Shown here: in pieces, positions 9,660 through 37,253 of the stretch
Numbering within the stretch: the first letter of the stretch is position 1
How the letters are laid out: every line of letters starts with the position of its first letter
Assembly (NCBI GenBank): GCA_017432225.1
Contig: JAFRJN010000002.1
Coordinates: forward strand, 1-39,348
Source of the DNA: Candidatus Saccharimonadota bacterium
Lineage (GTDB): Bacteria > Patescibacteriota > Saccharimonadia > Saccharimonadales > Saccharimonadaceae
DNA: 39,348 bases
Reading direction: 5' to 3'
Made by a program: the position numbers and the translations under genes
Notes under the pieces: model-generated
What the model was told of the DNA's origin: nothing
Database searches by the model: none
The model's input: the letters and a program-made list of their open reading frames with translations, nothing else

Positions 9660-10220
9660 ATGTACGGACCTACAGATCTCAAGAAAAACACCCTTATCAC
9701 TTTGGATGGACAGCCGTACAAGGTGGTAGAATATTCTCAAAAAGTTATGGGCCGTGGCGGTTCCATCGTCAACGTCAAAGTTAAAAATTTGATTACCGGT
9801 GCTTTGCTTCCAAAGACCTTTAAAGGTCAGGAAAAAATCGAGCCAGCCGAAGTCACCACTCGTAAAGTTCAATATCTTTACAACGACGGCGAAAAGTTCT
9901 ACTTTATGGACCCAGAAAGTTTTGAACAATACGAGCTCATGGGCGACATGGTTGGCGAATCGGCCGACTTTATGAAAGAGGGCGACGAAATGGAAATCCA
10001 ATTCTACAACGGCACCCCGATTAATCTCAATCTGCCAAAGAATCTCTGGCTCAAAGTCACTTACACCGAGACTGCGGTGAAGGGCGACACCACGAGCTCG
10101 GTCATGAAAGACGCGACCCTCGAGACTGGCATCGTCATCAAAGTCCCCGCCTTTATCAAAGAAGGTGACATCGTCTCGGTAGACACAGATACTCATGAAT
10201 ACCGCGAACGCAAAAAATAG
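9660..10220 (+). CDS. efp: Elongation factor P
   Basis: A 186-residue EF-P that relieves ribosome stalling at polyproline. The N-terminal KOW-like domain begins YGPTDLKKNTLITLDGQPYKVVEYSQKVMGRGGSIVNVKVKNL. Two OB domains follow, ending VIKVPAFIKEGDIVSVDTDTHEYRER. The loop tip carries Arg (MGRGGS) where E. coli has the modified Lys34, so lysylation by EpmA is not expected. Arg-type EF-Ps are rhamnosylated by EarP in some bacteria, but no such gene is in view. Polyproline handling is relevant because the window encodes very Pro-rich surface proteins. AAAAAGGAGT precedes the ATG. The end overlaps the next gene. Confidence 0.95.
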   Translation: MYGPTDLKKNTLITLDGQPYKVVEYSQKVMGRGGSIVNVKVKNLITGALLPKTFKGQEKIEPAEVTTRKVQYLYNDGEKFYFMDPESFEQYELMGDMVGESADFMKEGDEMEIQFYNGTPINLNLPKNLWLKVTYTETAVKGDTTSSVMKDATLETGIVIKVPAFIKEGDIVSVDTDTHEYRERKK

Positions 10221-10811: not shown

Positions 10812-10840
10812 TTGCAATTTGTCAAGTTTAAGCTTATAAT
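10812..10840 (+). promoter_or_regulatory. pilM promoter, leaderless
   Basis: TTGCAA 10812-10817, a 17-base spacer and TATAAT 10835-10840. Six bases then separate the -10 from the ATG at 10847, so the mRNA should begin at the start codon. It probably drives the pilus operon through pilB. Confidence 0.8.
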
Positions 10841-10846
10841 TAAACC

Positions 10847-11893
10847 ATGAACTTATTACATGGCGTGGGCGATTTCTTCTCGCTAGACATCGGGACCAAC
10901 TCGATGCGTATCATCCAGCTTGTCGGTGACGATAAGAATGGCTGGTCATTAATTCGCTACGCTTATGTTCCGATCGAACCACGGCTCACCGCCGACCAAA
11001 CCGATTTAGGTCGCAAGCGTCTCGGCGAGGCTATTTTGGGTGCCGTCGAGCAAGCTGGTATCAAGACCAAATCCGTCGCTGTCGGGCTCCCCGCTAGCAA
11101 GACCTTTACTTCCATTGTCGAGACGGATACTTTACCCGAAAAGGAATTGCAAAAAACTTTCAAATACGAAATCGACAAATACGTCCCGATGCCAATGAGT
11201 GATGCCAAGGCCGACTACGTAATCCTCGGCCCCAGCCCCAACGATCCTATGAAAACCGAAGTCTTGGTGAGCTCCGTTGCGAGAAGCTACGCCGAGCCAT
11301 ATCTAGAAACTATCGAAAAAACTGGTTTGAGCGTTATCGCGATGGAGCCAGAGCCACTAGCCATGGCCCGCTCTTTGAGCTTGCCTGGTGCTATCGACGC
11401 TACCATGATTGTCGATTTTGGTGAGAAGTCTACCGATCTTGTCATCACTTACCAGAACAAGCCTCGCTTGGTCCGTTCCATTCCAGGTGGTTTTGACCAG
11501 TTCTTAAATGCTGTTACCGCCGGTCTCGGCGTCACCGAAGACCAAGCTCGCCAATTTATCCTCAAATTTGGTCTTTCTGAAGAGCAAGTCGAGGGCCAAG
11601 TCTTCAAAATCCTCGTTCCATCTCTCGACACTTATGCTTCCGAGCTGGCTAAGTCCGTTCGTTTCTTCCAGACCAAATATCTAAATGGCAAAGTCGGCAG
11701 CATTGTCCTCTCCGGCTACGCCAGCATGATCCCACTCTTTGCTGAATACATTGAAGCCAAGACTAACATTCCAGTTATCAAAGGCAACCCATGGCAGCTA
11801 GTTCGTACTACTCCAGAACAGCAGCACGCCCTCATGCCAGTCGCGTCTGAATTTGCCGTGGTAATCGGTTTGTCAGAAAGGAGCAATGACTAA
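10847..11893 (+). CDS. pilM: Type IV pilus assembly protein PilM
   Basis: A 348-residue actin-like ATPase of the PilM/FtsA fold that sits on the cytoplasmic face of the pilus machine and binds the N-terminus of PilN. FFSLDIGTNSMRIIQL is the first phosphate loop, VAVGLPASKTFTSIVETDTLPEKEL a family block, MIVDFGEKSTDLVI the second phosphate loop, and GSIVLSGYASMIPLFAEYI the adenosine-binding block. No membrane segment is seen. It has a leaderless start, and its TAA overlaps the next ATG (TAATG). It is the first gene of the pilM-pilN-pilO order typical of type IV pili. Confidence 0.93.
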   Translation: MNLLHGVGDFFSLDIGTNSMRIIQLVGDDKNGWSLIRYAYVPIEPRLTADQTDLGRKRLGEAILGAVEQAGIKTKSVAVGLPASKTFTSIVETDTLPEKELQKTFKYEIDKYVPMPMSDAKADYVILGPSPNDPMKTEVLVSSVARSYAEPYLETIEKTGLSVIAMEPEPLAMARSLSLPGAIDATMIVDFGEKSTDLVITYQNKPRLVRSIPGGFDQFLNAVTAGLGVTEDQARQFILKFGLSEEQVEGQVFKILVPSLDTYASELAKSVRFFQTKYLNGKVGSIVLSGYASMIPLFAEYIEAKTNIPVIKGNPWQLVRTTPEQQHALMPVASEFAVVIGLSERSND

Positions 11894-13179
11894 TGGCCAA
11901 AGAAATTAACCTCGTACCAGACATCAAAGACGAGTTCTTGAGGACTCTTAAGTTTAGAAACCTAGTCTTTTTCCTTTGCATTATTATCTCGGCCGCTAGC
12001 CTTATCGTGATTTTGGTATTCGTTTCCATCACCAGCGGTCAAAAGAATTTCATCAACTCCAAGCAAAACACCATTGCTGCGCTCGAGCAAAAAATCAACG
12101 ATTACAGCGATTTGTCAGATTTTCTTACCATTCACGACCAGCTCGGCAACATTTCGCTCATCACCGAAAACAAAGTTATGCTTTCTCGTACTTTCAATAT
12201 TCTCTCCGCCATCATCCCGACTGGCGCCGACTATATCAATATTTCCGAACTTTCGATTGATTTGAGTGGTGAAGCTCCGACTTTCCGCTTCGAGGCCCAG
12301 GCTAATGCCGGCTCCGAACCATTCATCGATTACAACGTCCTAGATTCTTTCAAAAAATCCATGCAATATATGCGCTATGACTACGGCGAATACGTCGACA
12401 AAAACGACGAATCAATCCCAGCCTACTGTATTATTGAGACTGCCGACGACGGCTCCGTGTTAAGAGATCAGGCCAAAGGCTACTACGCCTACTGGCTCAT
12501 CGAAGGTGATGGCTGCAACCCATCCGCCGAAGACGAAGACGAAGAAGAGGAAGAAGAAACCGACGCATCCTCCGCAAGCGAAAACCTCGCTACTGACACT
12601 ACCGAGCAAATCGAAGTCATCCCGACGAGGGAAGAGCTCTCAAACCAGCTCGGCTATCCACTCGAAGATTACAAAGGCCAAAATGTCGTCCGTATTTGGC
12701 GCACTCCACAATATGCTGATTGGTACAAAGAAGATCCAAACGAAGACGATGTCTACATGGATCTAGACGGTTCCATTCATAACGTTGCGCATTTTAATAG
12801 TACCTGCATTAGCTATTCTGGTACCGAGAACAGTAGCGGCGACGCTATCACTTGGTCGGCCACCAATACTTGTAAACTTGTTCCTGGCGCCGACGATGGT
12901 TCTAGCGGTATCACCATTGAGGAATCGTCCAACGGCCGTGATGCTAGCGAAGAATTAGTCCTCCGTTTCTCCGGCACTATCGCGTTTGCCTCCGAAGTAT
13001 TTAATTTCAACAATCACCACATGCTCGCGCTTTCGCCAAGCGGCCGATACAACGTGACCGATTCGTATTCTCAAATCCAGAGTATCTTTGCCGAGCGCGC
13101 TGCCGACTGTGAGCAAGACGACACCGTCTGTACCACTACCCCGACTAGAAACACTAATAGTAACGAGGAGGCGGAATGA
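11893..13179 (+). CDS. PilN-like pilus inner-membrane protein, enlarged
   Basis: A 428-residue protein. The N-terminus AKEINLVPD is the PilN motif that docks into PilM. A membrane helix follows at about 22-48 (LVFFLCIIISAASLIVILVFVSI), then a short coiled coil (NTIAALEQKINDY) and a ferredoxin-like region. PilN is usually about 200 residues. Here the extracytoplasmic part is doubled and contains an acidic run of Asp/Glu near residues 215-225 and several Cys in its second half. It is probably the alignment-complex subunit linking PilM and the PilO-like protein. The enlargement may reflect a monoderm envelope without PilP/PilQ. It overlaps the next gene by 4 bases (ATGA). Confidence 0.8.
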   Translation: MAKEINLVPDIKDEFLRTLKFRNLVFFLCIIISAASLIVILVFVSITSGQKNFINSKQNTIAALEQKINDYSDLSDFLTIHDQLGNISLITENKVMLSRTFNILSAIIPTGADYINISELSIDLSGEAPTFRFEAQANAGSEPFIDYNVLDSFKKSMQYMRYDYGEYVDKNDESIPAYCIIETADDGSVLRDQAKGYYAYWLIEGDGCNPSAEDEDEEEEEETDASSASENLATDTTEQIEVIPTREELSNQLGYPLEDYKGQNVVRIWRTPQYADWYKEDPNEDDVYMDLDGSIHNVAHFNSTCISYSGTENSSGDAITWSATNTCKLVPGADDGSSGITIEESSNGRDASEELVLRFSGTIAFASEVFNFNNHHMLALSPSGRYNVTDSYSQIQSIFAERAADCEQDDTVCTTTPTRNTNSNEEAE

Positions 13180-14060
13180 TCAAAACTTCCCAAAAAGACC
13201 AAGATGGTACCACCAAGCGAGCGAAAATTAGCAAGGCTCAACAGTATATGATTTTGTCGGTGCTCGGCGCCAGCCTTTTCCTAGGCGCTGCCGTTGCCGT
13301 AGTCGTAAAATCTGTCAATCGTATTTCCTTCAATGCTAATGTGATTATGGCAGAGGACCAATCTATCGTGGCCTTTTCCGACACCATCAAAAATATCGGT
13401 ATCTGCACCAAGCCATCCGGCAGCGTTTACACCGACGAAGAGCTTAAGAAATGTAATCCTGATAGTATCAGCGCTTACAATGTACCAGGCACTCTCCGTT
13501 CCAACATTTTGGAGGTTTTGGCCGGTTCCGAGGCACTCGAGTCCGTCGCCAACCAAGGCAGCAGTAACTGTCTCAACCCAGACACGGGCAAGAACTACAC
13601 TTACAAAGAGCTCGACGCCAAATACGACGCCGCCGAAACCGAAGCCGAGCTTTCTGCTGCTAGCAATTTGATCAAAAGCTGTTCCGCTCTCCGCGTCATT
13701 CCAGATGCTCTCCCAGCTTACGAAAACGAAGAAGCTCTCCTCGCCAGCGTTGACAAAATTTTCCGCGTCTCCGGCACCGAGCCAGAGTCTTTGAGCCCTA
13801 CCGGCGAAACCGACGTCGCAACTTACGGCACTAGCCTTTACACTATTTCCGTCCGTCTAGCTATCGAAACCGATGCCGGCACCGTTAACAATTTACTCGA
13901 AAATGTCGAACGTTCCATCCGCAATTTTAACGTCGAGCGTGCCACCATCAAATGGAGTAGCAACAACGCTATCAATTTCCAGGCCAACGCCACTGCATTT
14001 TACATGCTTCCGACCGATCTCGACGTCACCACCAAAGTTATTAAATTAGGAGGTAAATAA
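13176..14060 (+). CDS. PilO-like pilus inner-membrane protein
   Basis: A 294-residue protein with a basic N-terminus (KTSQKDQDGTTKRAKISKAQQY), one membrane helix near 26-50 (MILSVLGASLFLGAAVAVVVK) and a Ser/Thr- and Cys-containing extracytoplasmic domain. The end (YTISVRLAIETDAGTVNNLLENVERSIRNF) resembles the PilO/GspM ferredoxin-like fold. The family match is weak by sequence and rests on position after pilM and the PilN-like gene, plus topology. It starts within the ATGA of the upstream gene. GGAGG precedes the ATG of the following small gene. Confidence 0.7.
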   Translation: MIKTSQKDQDGTTKRAKISKAQQYMILSVLGASLFLGAAVAVVVKSVNRISFNANVIMAEDQSIVAFSDTIKNIGICTKPSGSVYTDEELKKCNPDSISAYNVPGTLRSNILEVLAGSEALESVANQGSSNCLNPDTGKNYTYKELDAKYDAAETEAELSAASNLIKSCSALRVIPDALPAYENEEALLASVDKIFRVSGTEPESLSPTGETDVATYGTSLYTISVRLAIETDAGTVNNLLENVERSIRNFNVERATIKWSSNNAINFQANATAFYMLPTDLDVTTKVIKLGGK

Positions 14061-14318
14061 ATGAAAACCGATCTCTTTACCGCAATCATCGCCGCCATCG
14101 CCGGCTTTGCCGTAGCTTTTCTAGTGACGGCTAATGTCCTAATCAAAGACCCTAGTCAAGTTTCTATCAAAACTTTAAGCAGCCCCATCAGCACCAGCTT
14201 AAACGAACCGAGCGAAGAAGTTTTCAACTACCGCGCTATCAATCCGACCGTCGAAGCCTATGTCGACTGCACCAATTACGATGTTGCTGGTAACTGCGTG
14301 CAGAGAGCAGGAGAATAA
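14061..14318 (+). CDS. Small pilus-operon membrane protein
   Basis: An 85-residue protein with an N-terminal membrane helix (LFTAIIAAIAGFAVAFLVTANVLI) and a short outer part with two cysteines (VDCTNYDVAGNCVQ), suited to one disulfide. No family is recognised. Its place between the PilO-like gene and pilB, with an AGGAGGT ribosome binding site and no intergenic gap, says it belongs to pilus assembly. A PilP-like role is possible but unsupported by sequence. Confidence 0.7.
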   Translation: MKTDLFTAIIAAIAGFAVAFLVTANVLIKDPSQVSIKTLSSPISTSLNEPSEEVFNYRAINPTVEAYVDCTNYDVAGNCVQRAGE

Positions 14319-16076
14319 ATGGCAGTTCTAACTAGAGAGGCCGAATCCAGGATTCTAAACCTCCTTCTAGCGGAGGGTTTAGTTGAGCCTAGTCTAGCTA
14401 CTAATGTCCAGAGTTCCATCGCGAGCGGGGAATCAGTTCTGGACAAATTAGTGGATGAACGCGCCATTACGAAGGACATGATTTCTCATGCCACCGCCGT
14501 CATTATCGGTGTGCCTTACGTTGAGCTTAAAAACGTCATGATCGACCAAGACATTTTGGTCACGATTCCGTACGAGACTCAAGCTCGTTTCATGGTCATT
14601 CCGCTCGGCGAAAAAGACGGTATGTTAAATATCGCCATGGCCGACGTCACTAACGTTCAGGCTACCGACTATATTTCTAATCTCATCAACAAGCCCGTCC
14701 GCGTCTGGATGTCGAGCGAACGCGGCATCAGCGAAATGCTCGAAAAAAACCATGGTGATTTTTCTGGCGTCAAAGAAGCCGTCAAAGATAGTAAAGAAGA
14801 AGTCGCCCAGCAGGCATCAAATGTTAAAACTATCGTTCAAGATTCTCCGATTTCCAAGGCTCTCACCACGATTTTGAGTTATGCGGTCAAGACCAAATCT
14901 TCCGATATTCACATCGAGCCACTTGAAGACTCGCTCATCATTCGTTGCCGCATCGATGGTGTTCTCCGAAAAATCATGGACCTGCCCAAAGCCGTCGCAC
15001 CTGCTCTTGTTTCGCGTATCAAAATCTTGGCTAACCTCAAAATCGACGAACATCGTATCCCGCAGGACGGCCAGTTTACCGTGATTGTAGAAGACAAGGA
15101 AGTGGACCTTCGTATTGCTACCTCGCCAGTCACTTGGGGCGAGCAAGTCGTTATTCGTCTTTTGGATAAAAAAGGCGTTTCCATGGACATTCACAAAATG
15201 GGTATGGCCGGTCGCGCTCTTCGTGCCGTGCTCGATGGCATTCAAAAGCCAAACGGCATGATTTTAACTTCCGGTCCTACGGGTTCTGGTAAGTCTACTA
15301 CGCTCTATGCCTTGATTCAAGAAATTAAATCTGAAGAAATCAACATCGTGACTCTCGAGGACCCGGTCGAGTACAAAATGGACGGTATCAACCAAATTCA
15401 GGTCAATGTCGACGCCGGTCTCACTTTTGCGTCAGGTTTAAGAAGTATCCTTCGTCAAGACCCTGACGTAGTGATGGTCGGGGAGATTCGTGACTCCGAG
15501 ACTGCCTCTTTGGCCGTGCAGGCGGCACTTACCGGCCACTTGGTCTTTAGTACACTCCACACCAACTCGGCGGCTGGTATTTTGCCTCGTCTTCTCGACA
15601 TGGGTATCGAGCCGTTCCTCCTCGCCTCGACCTTGAACGTGGTCATCGGCCAGCGCTTGGTGCGCCGGGTCACAGAAAAACGCGATTTGTACAAATCTTC
15701 CGATCTTGAGACCGCTTCCATCAATTCCATCGTTGGCGATTTGTTGCCGCAGACCAAGTCGGACGTCGACAGAATTAGCGAGGACCTCGGCTATCCAGGA
15801 CTTCCAGTAAAAGACGACAATTTCTATATGCTAGCGAGAGGCCGCGATACCAAAGAGACTCCTGGCGGTTATGCTGGCCGGGCCGGTCTCTACGAAACCA
15901 TCACCTGCGATGAAGATATTCAAAAAATGATTGTGAATCACTCTACTGCCGCCGAAATTATGCACCTTGCGCGTGAAAAAGGCACCGTCACTATGCGCCA
16001 AGACGGTATTTTGAAAGTTCTTTCTGGTATTACGACAATTGACGAAGTCAATCGTGTAGCATCCGACATCTCGTAA
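14319..16076 (+). CDS. pilB: Type IV pilus extension ATPase PilB
   Basis: A 585-residue GspE/PilB-type ATPase that powers pilus extension. An N-terminal MshEN-like domain (ITKDMISHATAVIIGVPYVELKN) is followed by the N2 domain (SSDIHIEPLEDSLIIRCRIDGVLRKI). The core ATPase has Walker A GPTGSGKST, the Asp box VTLEDPVEYKMDGINQIQV, Walker B RQDPDVVMVGEIRDSETA and the His box TGHLVFSTLHTNSAAG. The zinc-binding tetracysteine insert found in many GspE/PilB proteins is absent: QRLVRRVTEKRDLYKSS has no Cys. The start follows GCAGGAGAATAA. It ends just before the pilT promoter. Confidence 0.93.
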   Translation: MAVLTREAESRILNLLLAEGLVEPSLATNVQSSIASGESVLDKLVDERAITKDMISHATAVIIGVPYVELKNVMIDQDILVTIPYETQARFMVIPLGEKDGMLNIAMADVTNVQATDYISNLINKPVRVWMSSERGISEMLEKNHGDFSGVKEAVKDSKEEVAQQASNVKTIVQDSPISKALTTILSYAVKTKSSDIHIEPLEDSLIIRCRIDGVLRKIMDLPKAVAPALVSRIKILANLKIDEHRIPQDGQFTVIVEDKEVDLRIATSPVTWGEQVVIRLLDKKGVSMDIHKMGMAGRALRAVLDGIQKPNGMILTSGPTGSGKSTTLYALIQEIKSEEINIVTLEDPVEYKMDGINQIQVNVDAGLTFASGLRSILRQDPDVVMVGEIRDSETASLAVQAALTGHLVFSTLHTNSAAGILPRLLDMGIEPFLLASTLNVVIGQRLVRRVTEKRDLYKSSDLETASINSIVGDLLPQTKSDVDRISEDLGYPGLPVKDDNFYMLARGRDTKETPGGYAGRAGLYETITCDEDIQKMIVNHSTAAEIMHLAREKGTVTMRQDGILKVLSGITTIDEVNRVASDIS

Positions 16077-16093
16077 TTTTATTAAACTTATGG

Positions 16094-16099
16094 TAAAAT
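16094..16099 (+). promoter_or_regulatory. pilT -10, leaderless
   Basis: TAAAAT at 16094-16099 ends exactly 6 bases before the pilT ATG at 16106, and no ribosome binding site is present. No good -35 is seen at the 17-base position. Confidence 0.55.
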
Positions 16100-18404: not shown

Positions 18405-18433
18405 TTGTCATTTTTAAACATAAGAGGTATACT
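18405..18433 (+). promoter_or_regulatory. Promoter of the first pilin gene, leaderless
   Basis: TTGTCA 18405-18410, a 17-base spacer, TATACT 18428-18433, then exactly 6 bases to the ATG at 18440. The -35 begins three bases after pilC ends. The pilin can therefore be expressed separately from pilTC. Confidence 0.75.
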
Positions 18434-19873: not shown

Positions 19874-19879
19874 ATTTTA
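19874..19879 (-). promoter_or_regulatory. pilD -10, leaderless
   Basis: On the minus strand TAAAAT ends exactly 6 bases before the pilD ATG (19867), with no ribosome binding site. The -35 is not clear. Confidence 0.55.
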
Positions 19880-20724: not shown

Positions 20725-20730
20725 TATAAT
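20725..20730 (+). promoter_or_regulatory. -10 of the 20737 pilin-like gene, leaderless
   Basis: TATAAT at 20725-20730 is preceded by TGT (extended -10), and exactly 6 bases later the ATG at 20737 begins. A reading frame from TTG at 20719 exists but would start inside the promoter, so it is rejected as the start. Confidence 0.75.
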
Positions 20731-22446: not shown

Positions 22447-22452
22447 ATTATA
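22447..22452 (-). promoter_or_regulatory. Recombinase -10, leaderless
   Basis: On the minus strand TGTGATATAATAGGGTT precedes the ATG: TATAAT, then exactly 6 bases to the start codon at 22440. The -35 is weak. Confidence 0.7.
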
Positions 22453-24268: not shown

Positions 24269-25462
24269 CTACTTTGCTAGTTTATACGCATCCCTCACAA
24301 TCATCACTTCCTCATTGGTCGGTTCTACATAGACCGGCACGGAAGAATCTTCTGTGGTGATGACACCGCTGGTGATTTCCTTAAACCCAGCAATTGCATT
24401 GTTCACCTCTACGTTGAGTTTGATCCCAAGCGGCGCCAAACCTTCGATGATTGACTCGCGCGTCTCGGCTCCGTTTTCCAAAACTCCAGCGGTAAACACA
24501 ATCGCATCTACCTGACCACCAAGTTCCAAGTAATACTCTGCGATATACCGGACAATCCGGTCCACGTACATGTCAAGAGCGAGTCTCGCATCTTCATCGC
24601 CTTCCGAAATCGCTTTTTCTACGTCGCGGTTGTCGTTAAAACCGCAGACCCCGAGTAGCCCAGACTTTTTGTTCAGGGCATCATCTACTTGGTCGTAAGT
24701 CATCCCAGCTTCATCAATCATGTATTTGATAATCGATGGGTCAATCGAGCCAGACCGCGTCCCCATCATTAGCCCATCAAGTGGAGTCAGCCCCATCGTG
24801 GTGTCATAGCTTTTGCCTTCCTTGACGGCGGTAATCGAAGCCCCCGACCCCACATGGCAAATAATCAAATTAATCTTTTCCTTACCAAGTTTCTTCTGCA
24901 TTTGCTCGGTAATGTACTTGTGCGAAGTCCCGTGGAAACCATATTTCCGCACGCCATATTTCTTGTACCATTCCATCGGCACCGGATACATATACTGGAC
25001 CTTTGGAATCGTCTGGTGAAAGGCCGTATCAAATACTGCTACTTGCACGGCATCCGGCAGAGCCTTTTGCATCGCCTTGACCCCAGAGATATTCCCCGGA
25101 AGATGTAGCGGTGCGAACTTGCCAAACTCTTTCATATCTTTCAAAACTTCATCGGTGATCACTACAGACTTGGTGTATTTTTCGCCACCATGCACCGCGC
25201 GGTGCCCCACGGCCTTGATTTCCGACAAATCTTTCACTGCGCCGTAGTTTACCAATTCCTCGAGCATAATCTTGACCGCTTCAGCGTGGTCTTTGACTGC
25301 TTTTACTACTTCATTTTTCTTGCCTTCGTGCTTGATAGTGTAAAAACTATCCTTTGCACCGATTTTTTCAAAATATCCGCCAATTAGCGAAATTTCCGCC
25401 GGCATATCATAAAGCTGGAACTTCAGAGAAGACGACCCAGCGTTCACGCATAGTACTTTCAT
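24269..25462 (-). CDS. ackA: Acetate kinase
   Basis: A 397-residue acetokinase that interconverts acetyl phosphate plus ADP with acetate plus ATP, the main substrate-level ATP step of many fermentative CPR bacteria. VLCVNAGSSSLKFQLYD is the N-terminal phosphate motif, GHRAVHGGE the substrate loop, FDTAFHQTIP and YGFHGTSHKY family blocks, and GLTPLDGLMMGTRSGSIDP the ATP-binding region. FTAGVLENGAETRE carries the usual late motif. Length is normal. A pta gene is not in the window. AAGGAGTAAAA precedes the ATG. It converges on the FISUMP gene. Confidence 0.97.
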   Translation of the reverse strand: MKVLCVNAGSSSLKFQLYDMPAEISLIGGYFEKIGAKDSFYTIKHEGKKNEVVKAVKDHAEAVKIMLEELVNYGAVKDLSEIKAVGHRAVHGGEKYTKSVVITDEVLKDMKEFGKFAPLHLPGNISGVKAMQKALPDAVQVAVFDTAFHQTIPKVQYMYPVPMEWYKKYGVRKYGFHGTSHKYITEQMQKKLGKEKINLIICHVGSGASITAVKEGKSYDTTMGLTPLDGLMMGTRSGSIDPSIIKYMIDEAGMTYDQVDDALNKKSGLLGVCGFNDNRDVEKAISEGDEDARLALDMYVDRIVRYIAEYYLELGGQVDAIVFTAGVLENGAETRESIIEGLAPLGIKLNVEVNNAIAGFKEITSGVITTEDSSVPVYVEPTNEEVMIVRDAYKLAK

Positions 25463-27855: not shown

Positions 27856-27861
27856 ATTATA
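27856..27861 (-). promoter_or_regulatory. Amino-acid ABC operon -10, leaderless
   Basis: On the minus strand CGTGTTATAATAAGGTT precedes the ATG: TATAAT (extended by TG), then exactly 6 bases to the start at 27849. The promoter lies between mscL and the operon in a 39-base gap. Confidence 0.75.
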
Positions 27862-28316: not shown

Positions 28317-28949
28317 TTATTTTGTCTCTGAAAAATCATTAAACTGTGTATAAAGATTGTTCAGACTATCATGAGACGAGGTCAAAAGCTCTTTTAGAGC
28401 CGCCTCGGAATCGGAGGTAGAGTTATAAATGGTCATTTCTTCACTCATCACGCTATAAATCTCCAGCGCCATTTTATGCGCAAAAGTCCTGTCGAGCAGC
28501 CCATTGATTTTGGCCTCAAACAGCTCATTCGAAAGCCCATCAGCGTTTAGTTCGGCTTCTTCTACCACCGCTTCGTCCACCTTGGATTCTTCATAACTAT
28601 ACGCAGAGATCATAAAATCACCCAGCTTCGAAGAAGTGTTAGTGAAAATCCCTTTGAGCGAAGCCGATAGGGAGCGTAGCGAAGAAGATTTGATATACTG
28701 CTGATATTCAGTGATCACGATACTAGTCTGGTCGAGTCGGAATTTTAGCTTGATACACTCATCCTTTGTGCTGGTGCCTCGGTTCATCATCAAAATCCCG
28801 CCAATCATCATAATTAAGATAAACGCCCCCACTGCCGCCATACTCCATTTAAAATATTTAGAATTAATGACCCCACTAATTCCTTTCTTCGGTGGCGCCT
28901 TTGGCCTAGCTAACTCTGAAATCTGATTCAAATAATCTTGACTATCCAT
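28317..28949 (-). CDS. Hypothetical single-span membrane protein
   Basis: A 210-residue protein of no family I recognise. Residues 1-33 are probably cytoplasmic (QDYLNQISELARPKAPPKK). One membrane helix lies near 36-58 (SMAAVGAFILIMMIGGILMM), followed by an about 150-residue helical acidic domain (KLKFRLDQTSIVITEYQQYI; GLLDRTFAHKMALEIYSVM). The frame is open upstream to 29150, but that part would overlap dnaG and its promoter. The ATG at 28949 (MDSQDYLNQ) is therefore preferred. It is divergent from dnaG and co-transcribed with mscL. Confidence 0.75.
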   Translation of the reverse strand: MDSQDYLNQISELARPKAPPKKGISGVINSKYFKWSMAAVGAFILIMMIGGILMMNRGTSTKDECIKLKFRLDQTSIVITEYQQYIKSSSLRSLSASLKGIFTNTSSKLGDFMISAYSYEESKVDEAVVEEAELNADGLSNELFEAKINGLLDRTFAHKMALEIYSVMSEEMTIYNSTSDSEAALKELLTSSHDSLNNLYTQFNDFSETK

Positions 28950-28967
28950 ATATTCCGATGCCCATGT

Positions 28968-28983
28968 TATAATATATATTATA
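28968..28983. promoter_or_regulatory. Symmetric bidirectional -10 between dnaG and the mscL operon
   Basis: TATAATATATATTATA is a perfect 16-base palindrome that places TATAAT on both strands (28968-28973 forward, 28983-28978 reverse). The dnaG ATG lies 12 bases after the forward box, and an overlapping TATATT at 28975-28980 would leave 5. The reverse start codon is 28 bases away. Confidence 0.6.
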
Positions 28984-28985
28984 TC

Positions 28986-30632
28986 ATGTATGATGCGAAG
29001 GAGGAAATAAAATCTCGGCTCCCCGTAGAGGACGTCATCGGTCAATATGTGGAGTTGAAACGCGCCGGCAGAAGCCTCAAAGGCCGTTCGCCTAGGGGTG
29101 TCAACAAAACCCCCAGTTTCATGGTTTCTCCCGAGAAGGGTATCTGGCATGATTTTTCTGCTAACAAAGGTGGCGACATTTTTACCTTCCTGATGGAAGT
29201 CGAGGGCATCACCTTTAAAGAAGCTTTAGAAAAATTAGCCCAGCGCGCCGGTGTCGACCTCCAGAAATATGGCGGCTTTTATAAAGGCTCCGACCGCAAG
29301 CTCGCCGAGAAAAAGTCTCGCTTAAAGGAAGCTCTAGATCTGTCCACCAAATATTATCAAGCTTGCCTCGCTCGTAGCAAAAACGTCCTCGAATACGTTT
29401 TTTACAAGAGAAACATGAACCGCGAGACAGTCAAAACTTTTAAAATCGGCTATTCTCCAGCCAGCGGCCATGCGCTCGTCGATGCTTTAGGGAAACGTGG
29501 TTTCACTACCGAGGAGCTAAACGACGCCGGCCTCCTCAACCGATTTCAAAAAGATTTATTCAAAAATCGTATGATGATCCCGTTTTTTGATACTGATGGC
29601 CAAGTTATCGGCTACACCGCAAGGATTCTAGACAAAGGTGAGCCGAAATACCTCAACACCCCAGAGACAATTTTGTTCAATAAATCCCGTTTCATCTTTG
29701 GATTATATCAAGCCAAGGAAGCTATCCGCCATAGCGGTTTCGTGGTAATCGTAGAGGGAAACATGGATGTGATTTCTTCGCATCAGGCCGGAGTAAAGGA
29801 AGCCGTGGCGACTTCAGGGACCGCTATGACCGAGCAGCATCTAAAAATCCTTTCGCGCCTCACTTCCGATATTCGCCTGGCTTACGATGGTGACGCAGCC
29901 GGGGTTAAAGCCACCGAGCGCGCGGTGGAGCTAGCTGGTGGGCTCGGCATCGACCTCACGATTATTTCTAATTATCACGGCGCCAAAGACCCAGATGAGC
30001 TTATCCAAAAGGACCCAAAATTATGGCGCGCAGCGGTCGAGGAGCGTATTCCCGCGGTGGACTGGCTTTTAAACAAATACGCTGAAACCCTGAATTTGAG
30101 CCAAGCTCCAGACAAACGTAAATATTCCGACCTCGCACTTCATCTTTTGACCTTTGTGAGAGATGAGATCGAGCGTGCCACTTACGAACAAAAAATTGCC
30201 GCGAGACTCGGTGTCACGGTCGAAGCTTTAAAAGAAAAAGGCGACCGTCTAAATCGTGAAATGGCAATCTCTGCGAGCAAAAAATATTACAAAAAACCTC
30301 AAACAGAGGCAAAAACTAATCAACTAAAAAAGTTAGTTAATGATCTGCTTGCACTCAAAATCTACGGTCGCGTCGAAACTCCCGAAATTCCTCTCGACGC
30401 GCCTACAGACGAGACCAAGCTGGCCGAACTTGAGCTGGTTTATCGCAGCAATTACGAAAATATTCCTGATTTCAACCCCTCTAAAGAGGCCCAAAATCTC
30501 CTTGACCGCCTCGATAAAGAATTAAAAAAGGCCGAAATTGCGAAGCTTCAGACTAAACTCACCGAGCTCGATGATGACGACCCAGATTACGAAAATGTCT
30601 TAAACGAGTTAAACCAGTTGCTAAAGTCTTAA
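28986..30632 (+). CDS. dnaG: DNA primase with degenerate zinc finger
   Basis: A 548-residue DnaG that makes RNA primers for replication. The N-terminal module runs DAKEEIKSRLPVEDVIGQYVELKRAGRSLKG, but the zinc ligands are lost. Where CPFHNEKTPSF is expected it has SPRGVNKTPSF, and where HCFGCGEGG is expected it has HDFSANKGG. The RNA polymerase core follows (FFDTDGQVIGYTARILDKGEPKYLNTPET). The TOPRIM motifs are VIVEGNMDVISSHQAG and LAYDGDAAGVKATERA. The C-terminal helicase-binding domain is short and divergent. The frame extends upstream to 28938, but the ATG at 28986 fits both the promoter and the family start. Confidence 0.93.
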   Translation: MYDAKEEIKSRLPVEDVIGQYVELKRAGRSLKGRSPRGVNKTPSFMVSPEKGIWHDFSANKGGDIFTFLMEVEGITFKEALEKLAQRAGVDLQKYGGFYKGSDRKLAEKKSRLKEALDLSTKYYQACLARSKNVLEYVFYKRNMNRETVKTFKIGYSPASGHALVDALGKRGFTTEELNDAGLLNRFQKDLFKNRMMIPFFDTDGQVIGYTARILDKGEPKYLNTPETILFNKSRFIFGLYQAKEAIRHSGFVVIVEGNMDVISSHQAGVKEAVATSGTAMTEQHLKILSRLTSDIRLAYDGDAAGVKATERAVELAGGLGIDLTIISNYHGAKDPDELIQKDPKLWRAAVEERIPAVDWLLNKYAETLNLSQAPDKRKYSDLALHLLTFVRDEIERATYEQKIAARLGVTVEALKEKGDRLNREMAISASKKYYKKPQTEAKTNQLKKLVNDLLALKIYGRVETPEIPLDAPTDETKLAELELVYRSNYENIPDFNPSKEAQNLLDRLDKELKKAEIAKLQTKLTELDDDDPDYENVLNELNQLLKS

Positions 30633-31088: not shown

Positions 31089-31094
31089 TATAAT
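31089..31094 (+). promoter_or_regulatory. parA -10, probably leaderless
   Basis: ATGCTATAAT places TATAAT at 31089-31094, and the ATG at 31103 follows after 8 bases without a ribosome binding site. The box begins 9 bases after the rplU hairpin. Confidence 0.6.
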
Positions 31095-32715: not shown

Positions 32716-32785
32716 ACCTATAAAACCTGTTTTTTGTAAACTCGTGAGCGAAGCGAGGCGTTTGCGAAAAATAGGTTTTATAGGT
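32716..32785 (+). terminator. Inverted repeat starting at the parB stop codon
   Basis: ACCTATAAAACCT (32716-32728), directly after the TAA, pairs perfectly with AGGTTTTATAGGT (32773-32785). An inner stem TTTTTTGTAAAC/GTTTGCGAAAAA follows, capped by a GAGCGAAGCGAG segment. The last base of the 3' arm is the first base of the rsh -10 box. Confidence 0.75.
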
Positions 32786-32790
32786 ATAAT
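32762..32790 (+). promoter_or_regulatory. rsh promoter, leaderless
   Basis: TTGCGA 32762-32767, a 17-base spacer, TATAAT 32785-32790, then exactly 6 bases (GAGGCT) to the ATG at 32797. The promoter is built into the 3' arm of the preceding hairpin. Confidence 0.75.
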
Positions 32791-37247: not shown

Positions 37248-37253
37248 TATAAT
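37248..37253 (+). promoter_or_regulatory. Nudix gene -10, leaderless
   Basis: AAATGGTATAATAAAGGT precedes the ATG: TATAAT, then exactly 6 bases to the start at 37260. No good -35 is present. Confidence 0.7.

Follow-up and report, generated by a model that had tools for sequence, protein, structure and literature searches.

Results and discussion

We conclude with high confidence that a Saccharibacterium, whose genus is taken to be Candidatus Nanosyncoccus (label g1), produces leaderless mRNAs from extended -10 sigma-70 promoters beside a normal Shine–Dalgarno (SD) class of genes. The spacing between promoter and start codon, the promoter motif, the absence of SD sites at these genes, the restriction to AUG, and the conservation of the arrangement within the genus are observed directly. 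The window, i.e. the whole stretch of 39,348 nucleotides that was analysed, is one entire contig of an 18-contig genome of 620,715 bases with a G+C content of 46%; many of its nearest named relatives among the Saccharibacteria come from ruminant gut. A fixed gap of six bases between -10 hexamer and start codon had been proposed in a sequence-only reading of this window, and the observation is confirmed as real, genome-wide and stronger than first claimed.

Promoters and start codons in the window

Throughout, the gap is the number of bases between the -10 hexamer and the start codon, and a hexamer with at most one mismatch to TATAAT is called TATAAT-like. The gene for PilM (10847–11893, plus strand; PF11104) is predicted to be leaderless, with a TATAAT at 10835–10840, gap 6, ATG at 10847, and a -35-like hexamer TTGCAA (10812–10817) separated from the -10 element by a 17-base spacer. 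Further plus-strand genes with gap 6 are pilT (TAAAAT 16094–16099, start 16106, preceded directly by TGG as in an extended -10 element), a pilin gene (TATACT 18428–18433, start 18440, -35-like TTGTCA at 18405–18410), gene 20737, which lacks a Pfam match (TATAAT 20725–20730, start 20737, preceded by TGT), rsh (TATAAT 32785–32790, start 32797, a -35-like TTGCGA with 17-base spacer and no TGn) and a Nudix gene (TATAAT 37248–37253, start 37260, preceded by TGG). On the minus strand, gap 6 is found at pilD, which encodes the prepilin peptidase (TAAAAT 19874–19879, start 19867, TGG just before), a Xer-type tyrosine recombinase gene (TATAAT 22447–22452, start 22440, TGA just before) and the gene of an amino-acid ABC binding protein (TATAAT 27856–27861, start 27849, TGT just before). 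Thus, the nine genes originally listed all carry a TATAAT-like hexamer at gap 6 (9/9); TGn is present in six of the nine, and pilM, pilin and rsh have in its place a -35-like hexamer spaced 17 bases from the -10 element. Both exceptions named at the time are likewise as described: ileS has gap 7 (plus strand, TACAAT 387–392, start 400, -35-like TTGTCA at 364–369) and parA gap 8 (plus strand, TATAAT 31089–31094, start 31103, TGC just before).

The contrasting class is represented by the operon-internal pil genes (11893–16076, plus strand), whose starts at 11893, 13176, 14061 and 14319 have SD-like sites and no -10 hexamer at gap 6, in agreement with the earlier view that genes inside operons keep their SD. 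The genes efp (9660–10220, plus strand; AAAAGGAGTAAA) and ackA (24269–25462, minus strand) belong to the SD class as well. At ackA, TGATATAAT lies 24 bases before the start, which is the same promoter type as that of the leaderless genes, here used with a leader. Most gene names of the sequence-only reading are backed by Pfam, namely pilM, pilT, pilin (N-methylation motif), prepilin peptidase, Xer-type recombinase, ABC binding protein, ParA, RelA/SpoT-type rsh, Nudix, EF-P, AckA, MscL and one Fib_succ_major (FISUMP) gene; for ileS the support is that of a class I tRNA synthetase, and “rpsF” and “rplU” were not backed by name.

Two observations stand apart from these genes. The plus-strand dnaG and an unnamed minus-strand gene diverge (28949–28986) from a 36-base intergenic gap full of TATA repeats, and dnaG has a clear TATAAT at gap 12, from which a leader of about 6 bases would result. 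Moreover, perfect TGNTATAATN6ATG elements head two uncalled short reading frames on the minus strand, one of 29 codons at L031:6495 and one of 27 codons in the window (29695); these possibly encode small proteins or have arisen by chance.

Spacing across the genome

Gene statistics for the genome were obtained from a sample of 317,843 of its 620,715 bases (318 kb, 51%), with gene starts in the 262-gene count set by coding potential alone using a home-made gene caller. The resulting distance distribution shows a sharp peak at gap 6: a TATAAT-like hexamer is present there in 61 of the 262 genes against a background of about 5.7 per position (Poisson tail 9e-41), and gaps 5 and 7 have 5 and 14, respectively. 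A gene-free count on both strands of the same sample gave an analogous result, as ATG follows at gap 6 after 71 of 448 exact TATAAT hexamers (background 7.1) and at gap 7 after 21 of 448 (background about 7). The peak is restricted to ATG, with GTG (2/448, no more than at neighbouring gaps) and TTG (6/448) showing none at gap 6. Over the whole genome, 122 exact TATAATN6ATG sequences compare with 8 for the reversed pattern. The 80 contigs from close relatives, all centred on pilT and hence oversampling its neighbourhood, contain 1,741 TATAAT hexamers, 297 of which have ATG at gap 6 (background 32). When other in-frame ATG starts were allowed, background-subtracted values reached 27% of 248 genes for gap 6 and, among 65 divergently transcribed genes, 43% for gaps 6–7. 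The fixed six-base gap thus holds as a feature of the genome rather than of the hand-picked genes only.

The genes at this gap share the element TGn-TATAAT-N5-T-ATG. Among 60 own gap-6 genes, 52 have the extended -10 element (TG at -15/-14; 125 of 174 in the genus contigs), 48 an exact TATAAT, and all 60 start with ATG; T occurs at position -1 with a frequency of 0.77. T at -1 and A at +1 are the usual preference at a transcription start site. A -35-like hexamer with a 17-base spacer was found in 10 of the 60. The SD core, by comparison, is present in none of the 60 gap-6 genes and in 84 of 184 others, and the 80 genus contigs give 2 of 174 versus 615 of 1,033. These counts agree with the proposal that the gap-6 genes lack a ribosome binding site and that two initiation classes coexist. 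They also separate the genome from the Bacteroidetes type, in which translation proceeds without SD across the genome, as the 84 non-leaderless genes with an SD core show that the motif is not absent genome-wide. Leaderless transcription, as inferred from promoter spacing and SD absence, is likewise upheld, the start sites themselves being predicted.

The promoter motif TGNTATAAT has 165 sites in the 318 kb, compared to 15 in the reversed sequence and 6–17 in five shuffles. Intergenic positions account for 137 of the 165, and 61 have an ATG at gap 6, of which 52 match a possible start of a called gene, with the Nudix gene in addition. Many of the remaining sites are found further upstream, tens of bases away from the next start, as at ackA. 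Since the motif occurs both at gap 6 and well upstream of starts, one promoter type appears to serve both classes, with only its position differing.

Alternatives to a start at the A of ATG

The best-surviving alternative assumes ultra-short leaders, i.e. that transcription starts a few bases upstream of the ATG and that a 5′ stub of 1–5 bases matters. It draws on the enrichment of gap 7 described above (21/448 TATAAT, background 7), on elevated counts at gaps 6–10 in the family pool, and on pilM, whose -10 element in other family genera is mostly found at gaps 9–10 (14 matches among 21 orthologues). In the genome itself, however, the counts for gaps 6 to 11 are 73, 17, 8, 3, 9 and 10 against a background of 5.6, so that gap 6 exceeds gap 7 fourfold and gaps 8–11 stay near background; moreover, T at -1 followed by A at +1 speaks for initiation at the A itself. 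We regard ultra-short leaders as an unlikely general explanation, though the true start may lie 1–2 bases off the A, and the cases with gap 7–8 may have such stubs.

Conversely, the gap-6 ATG may not be the true start, in which case a coding-looking leader would be followed by translation from a downstream, SD-preceded codon. An in-frame start with an SD core within codons 2–25 is found in 8 of 60 gap-6 genes, compared with 5 of 60 when a control stretch of these genes is taken; a few starts may accordingly be misassigned. As a general account this is very improbable, because a pure transcription signal would not predict the enrichment of ATG, and not of GTG or TTG, at gap 6, and because the spacing to the ATG is kept across orthologues. 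An upstream in-frame ATG is present in 5 of the 60 genes. It should be noted that 60 of 157 first-in-operon-like genes fall in neither class, in part through wrong choice of start. Finally, chance occurrence of TATAAT in AT-rich intergenic DNA near starts, with the six bases selected by eye, would be in keeping with hand-picked examples and a supply of hexamers with at most one mismatch of about 6/262 per position, but it has a negligible probability given a peak at one position only (61 vs about 6), the gene-free and whole-genome excesses (71 vs 7; 122 vs 8 in the reversed-pattern control) and the results with shuffles, reversed sequence and neighbouring gaps, which rule out base composition.

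Functions of the two classes

Having set these alternatives against leaderless initiation, we turn to the genes that show its signature. It had been proposed that the leaderless class takes in pilus components together with genes that are single-copy or regulatory. For some pilus genes this is correct, as pilM, pilT, pilD and one pilin gene in the window are of the leaderless type; others, at 11893, 13176, 14061, 14319 (pilB-like) and 20571 (prepilin), have SD-like sites, and the split in its general form is not supported. To assign names, 40 of the 54 leaderless genes found beyond the window and 30 of 37 SD first genes were scanned. The leaderless ones with a match to a named family encode mostly housekeeping enzymes (SerS, TyrS, GlyS, Der, ObgE, PolA, UvrB, PcrA-like, MurD, MurJ, Pth and SmpB), with HrcA as a clear regulator, and the SD first genes include bL25, bL35, GroEL, FtsZ, SecA, NusA, PPase and HPF. 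The codon-bias trend between the classes is weak (CAI 0.703 vs 0.740, p 0.02), and a strong functional partition was rejected on this ground; it hints weakly that the axis separating the classes is nearer to abundance than to regulation. Furthermore, 13 of 60 gap-6 genes lie less than 30 bases behind a co-directional upstream gene, indicating that leaderless genes are not only operon heads.

Conservation and distribution

Among genus orthologues in up to 80 contigs, gap 6–7 is found in 62/64 for pilM, 46/48 for gene 20737, 61/78 for pilT, 53/67 for pilD, 49/59 for xer and only 25/72 for the pilin gene. The corresponding values for the operon-internal genes at 11893, 13176, 14061 and 14319 are 0/64, 0/63, 0/64 and 0/64, and gap 6–7 was not found in the genus orthologues of the pil-operon gene 17191 either (up to 80 contigs). 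As the spacers have diverged (28 distinct spacers in 33 pilM and 43 in 49 xer orthologues) while the gap is kept, it is the spacing rather than the sequence that is conserved.

Beyond the genus, the picture depends on the gene. Gap 6–7 is present in 9/19 family and 8/11 order orthologues of xer, and in 2/26 pilT orthologues from other genera of the family, 14 of which have an SD. The gaps of 9–10 that prevail for pilM in other family genera (L160–L185) possibly represent an ultra-short-leader state beside the leaderless one. For all sampled own gap-6 genes taken together, the family orthologues outside the two high genera show gap 6–7 in 17 of 67, the rest being short-leader (18), SD (14) or neither (18); the family orthologues of own SD genes outside these genera show it in 0 of 29.

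Counts of TATAATN6ATG per genome have a median of 113 in 17 Nanosyncoccus genomes (range 76–124; reversed control median 9) and of 31.5 in 182 genomes from 60 other genera of the family (control 7). The three highest genus means are 110 for g1, 86 for g196 (n = 4) and 72 for g197 (n = 17). Across the phylum sample of 192 genomes the counts are mostly lower, with scattered high values, e.g. 95 vs 17 in G212. Such exact-motif counts vary with base composition, against which the reversed control and the gene-based values guard. The gene-based excess at gap 6–7 amounts to 24% in the genome under study, 16% in g196 and 15% in g197; two other genera reach 9% and 6%, pooled further genera 8%, and the order's other families 6%. 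The leaderless signature is thus far stronger in Nanosyncoccus than in most genera of the family.

Transcription and translation machinery

The element corresponds to an extended -10 sigma-70 promoter, with TGn directly before TATAAT, and the sigma factor has a housekeeping-type region 3.0. The motif RIPVHMVET of this region occurs in all seven g1 genomes examined, and we take it to resemble region 3.0 of E. coli sigma-70. Sigma70_r3 has one match per genome in 22 of 23 genomes and two in G235; a second sigma factor was therefore rejected as an explanation, G235 excepted.

On the side of translation, loss or change of the anti-SD was likewise rejected. The assembly under study is without a 16S gene; the anti-SD ACCTCCTTT was read, and is intact, in one congener from Nanosyncoccus and in six further genomes of the order. 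The 16S 3′ end in these seven Saccharimonadales genomes (L220–L225, L227) reads GGATTACCTCCTTT, a single-base departure, immediately ahead of the anti-SD, from GGATCACCTCC, which we presume to be the usual end. Loss of S1 or IF3 can also be discarded, as IF3 and S1-domain matches are present in 23/23 genomes, including all seven of g1. The same applies to bS21, considered and rejected because it is matched in 23/23 genomes, in 11 of them above the family cut-off. With anti-SD, IF3 and S1 matches and one sigma factor in place, leaderless initiation would operate alongside standard SD machinery.

The mechanism is very probably leaderless initiation of the ordinary kind. With TGn TATAAT N5 T ATG, the position of the promoter would make the A of ATG the first base transcribed by RNA polymerase with its single housekeeping sigma factor. 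The mRNA would then begin with 5′-AUG, to which 70S or 30S ribosomes would bind through pairing of the initiator tRNA with AUG and without SD–anti-SD contact. Roughly one gene in four would use such extended -10 promoters, and among divergently transcribed genes about two in five. The same ribosomes would serve the normal SD class, in which abundant proteins and operon-internal genes are more frequent.

A shortened YchF

YchF (TIGR00092) is matched in 23/23 genomes, and the match breaks mid-model in each of the seven g1 genomes and in both from g196. Measured by alignment columns, with three duplicate rows dropped before tree and count, the segment from LAD to L-x-x-KP comprises 24–27 residues in six Nanosyncoccus proteins and 25 in two of g196, compared to 53 in two of g197 and 56–64 in 19 other Saccharimonadales proteins. 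The missing part lies after residue 142 of H. influenzae YchF (1JAL). Most of the helical domain is thus missing in Nanosyncoccus and g196 (L252–L258, L267), and the P-loop and TGS regions look intact. In E. coli, the helical (coiled-coil) domain includes R146 and A160, and YchF is reported to inhibit translation of leaderless mRNA via IF3 (PMC8138138). A further article states that YchF promotes leaderless translation, contrary to the abstract of the primary paper (PMC12641178), and a review describes a charged cleft formed by the helical and TGS domains, with the exact role of the former given as unknown (PMC8779481).

It is conceivable, if rather doubtful, that the Nanosyncoccus lineage shifted toward leaderless mRNAs and partly dismantled a factor restraining them; loss of the YchF brake and leaderless spread may be causally linked. 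The three genera with most TATAATN6ATG are g1, g196 and g197, and g1 and g196 have the short segment. Against the link, the segment is of nearly full length in g197, where leaderless-type starts are numerous, the events in evolution number just one or two, and the reported E. coli ribosome cross-links come from the ATPase domain and not the helical one. In the PilT tree g1 joins g197, with g196 elsewhere on long branches, and in the YchF tree the three genera group together without a settled internal order; the deletion is compatible with one or two origins. A link between YchF and leaderless counts within the genus was discarded, as G022, intact by HMMER coverage, has the short segment in its sequence. 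E-values alone suggest a short YchF in g211, g243, g198, g194 and g213, for which contig edges could be the cause, and YchF was not found in the 20 stretches of G268 and 19 of G300 examined.

Comparison with known systems and implications

The best-known cases of leaderless translation are those of archaea, Actinobacteria and Deinococcus (PMC3160421, PMC8779481). Closest to the present case are the TA-led genes of Actinobacteria and Deinococcus-Thermus (Zheng 2011, PMC3160421), which have a -10-like signal about 10 bases upstream and no SD, make up about 20% (Actinobacteria) to 40% of genes, coexist with SD genes and are rarer among translation genes, all as in Nanosyncoccus. Their signal is TAnnnT in a high-GC background, whereas that of Nanosyncoccus is a near-exact TATAAT with extended -10; Saccharibacteria are not among the groups listed in the section of that paper on TA-led genes. 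Leaderless genes of Lactococcus and other low-GC genomes are similar in their strong TG before the Pribnow box, thought to substitute for the -35 element (PMC3160421), but Nanosyncoccus has 46% G+C and belongs to an episymbiont lineage. A further difference from Lactococcus is that each of the nine gap-6 genes of the window carries TGn or, failing that, a -35-like hexamer at a 17-base spacing. In mycobacteria, leaderless mRNAs constitute about a quarter of transcripts and form a robust class beside SD mRNAs, as in Nanosyncoccus (Shell 2015, PMC4633059); they use ATG and GTG, whereas Nanosyncoccus has no GTG signal and in its AUG restriction is closer to E. coli, where GTG gives less than 10% (PMC4633059). 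The leaderless group of bacteria defined by GeneMarkS-2, as cited for StartLink+ (PMC9581028), is another close known system. Leaderless initiation itself is known, though unusual; the lineage may be new to it, as a literature search, covering few subscription papers, found no report of leaderless genes in Saccharibacteria.

In annotation, start-finding can misplace the start codons that TGnTATAATN6ATG marks, and several were missed or shifted by our home-made caller. The response to drugs may also differ, since leaderless translation in E. coli resists kasugamycin and SD translation does not (PMC8138138). Within Saccharibacteria, the expansion at the level of a clade, with sister genera keeping an SD at the same genes (pilT), amounts to a natural experiment on the change of initiation mode.
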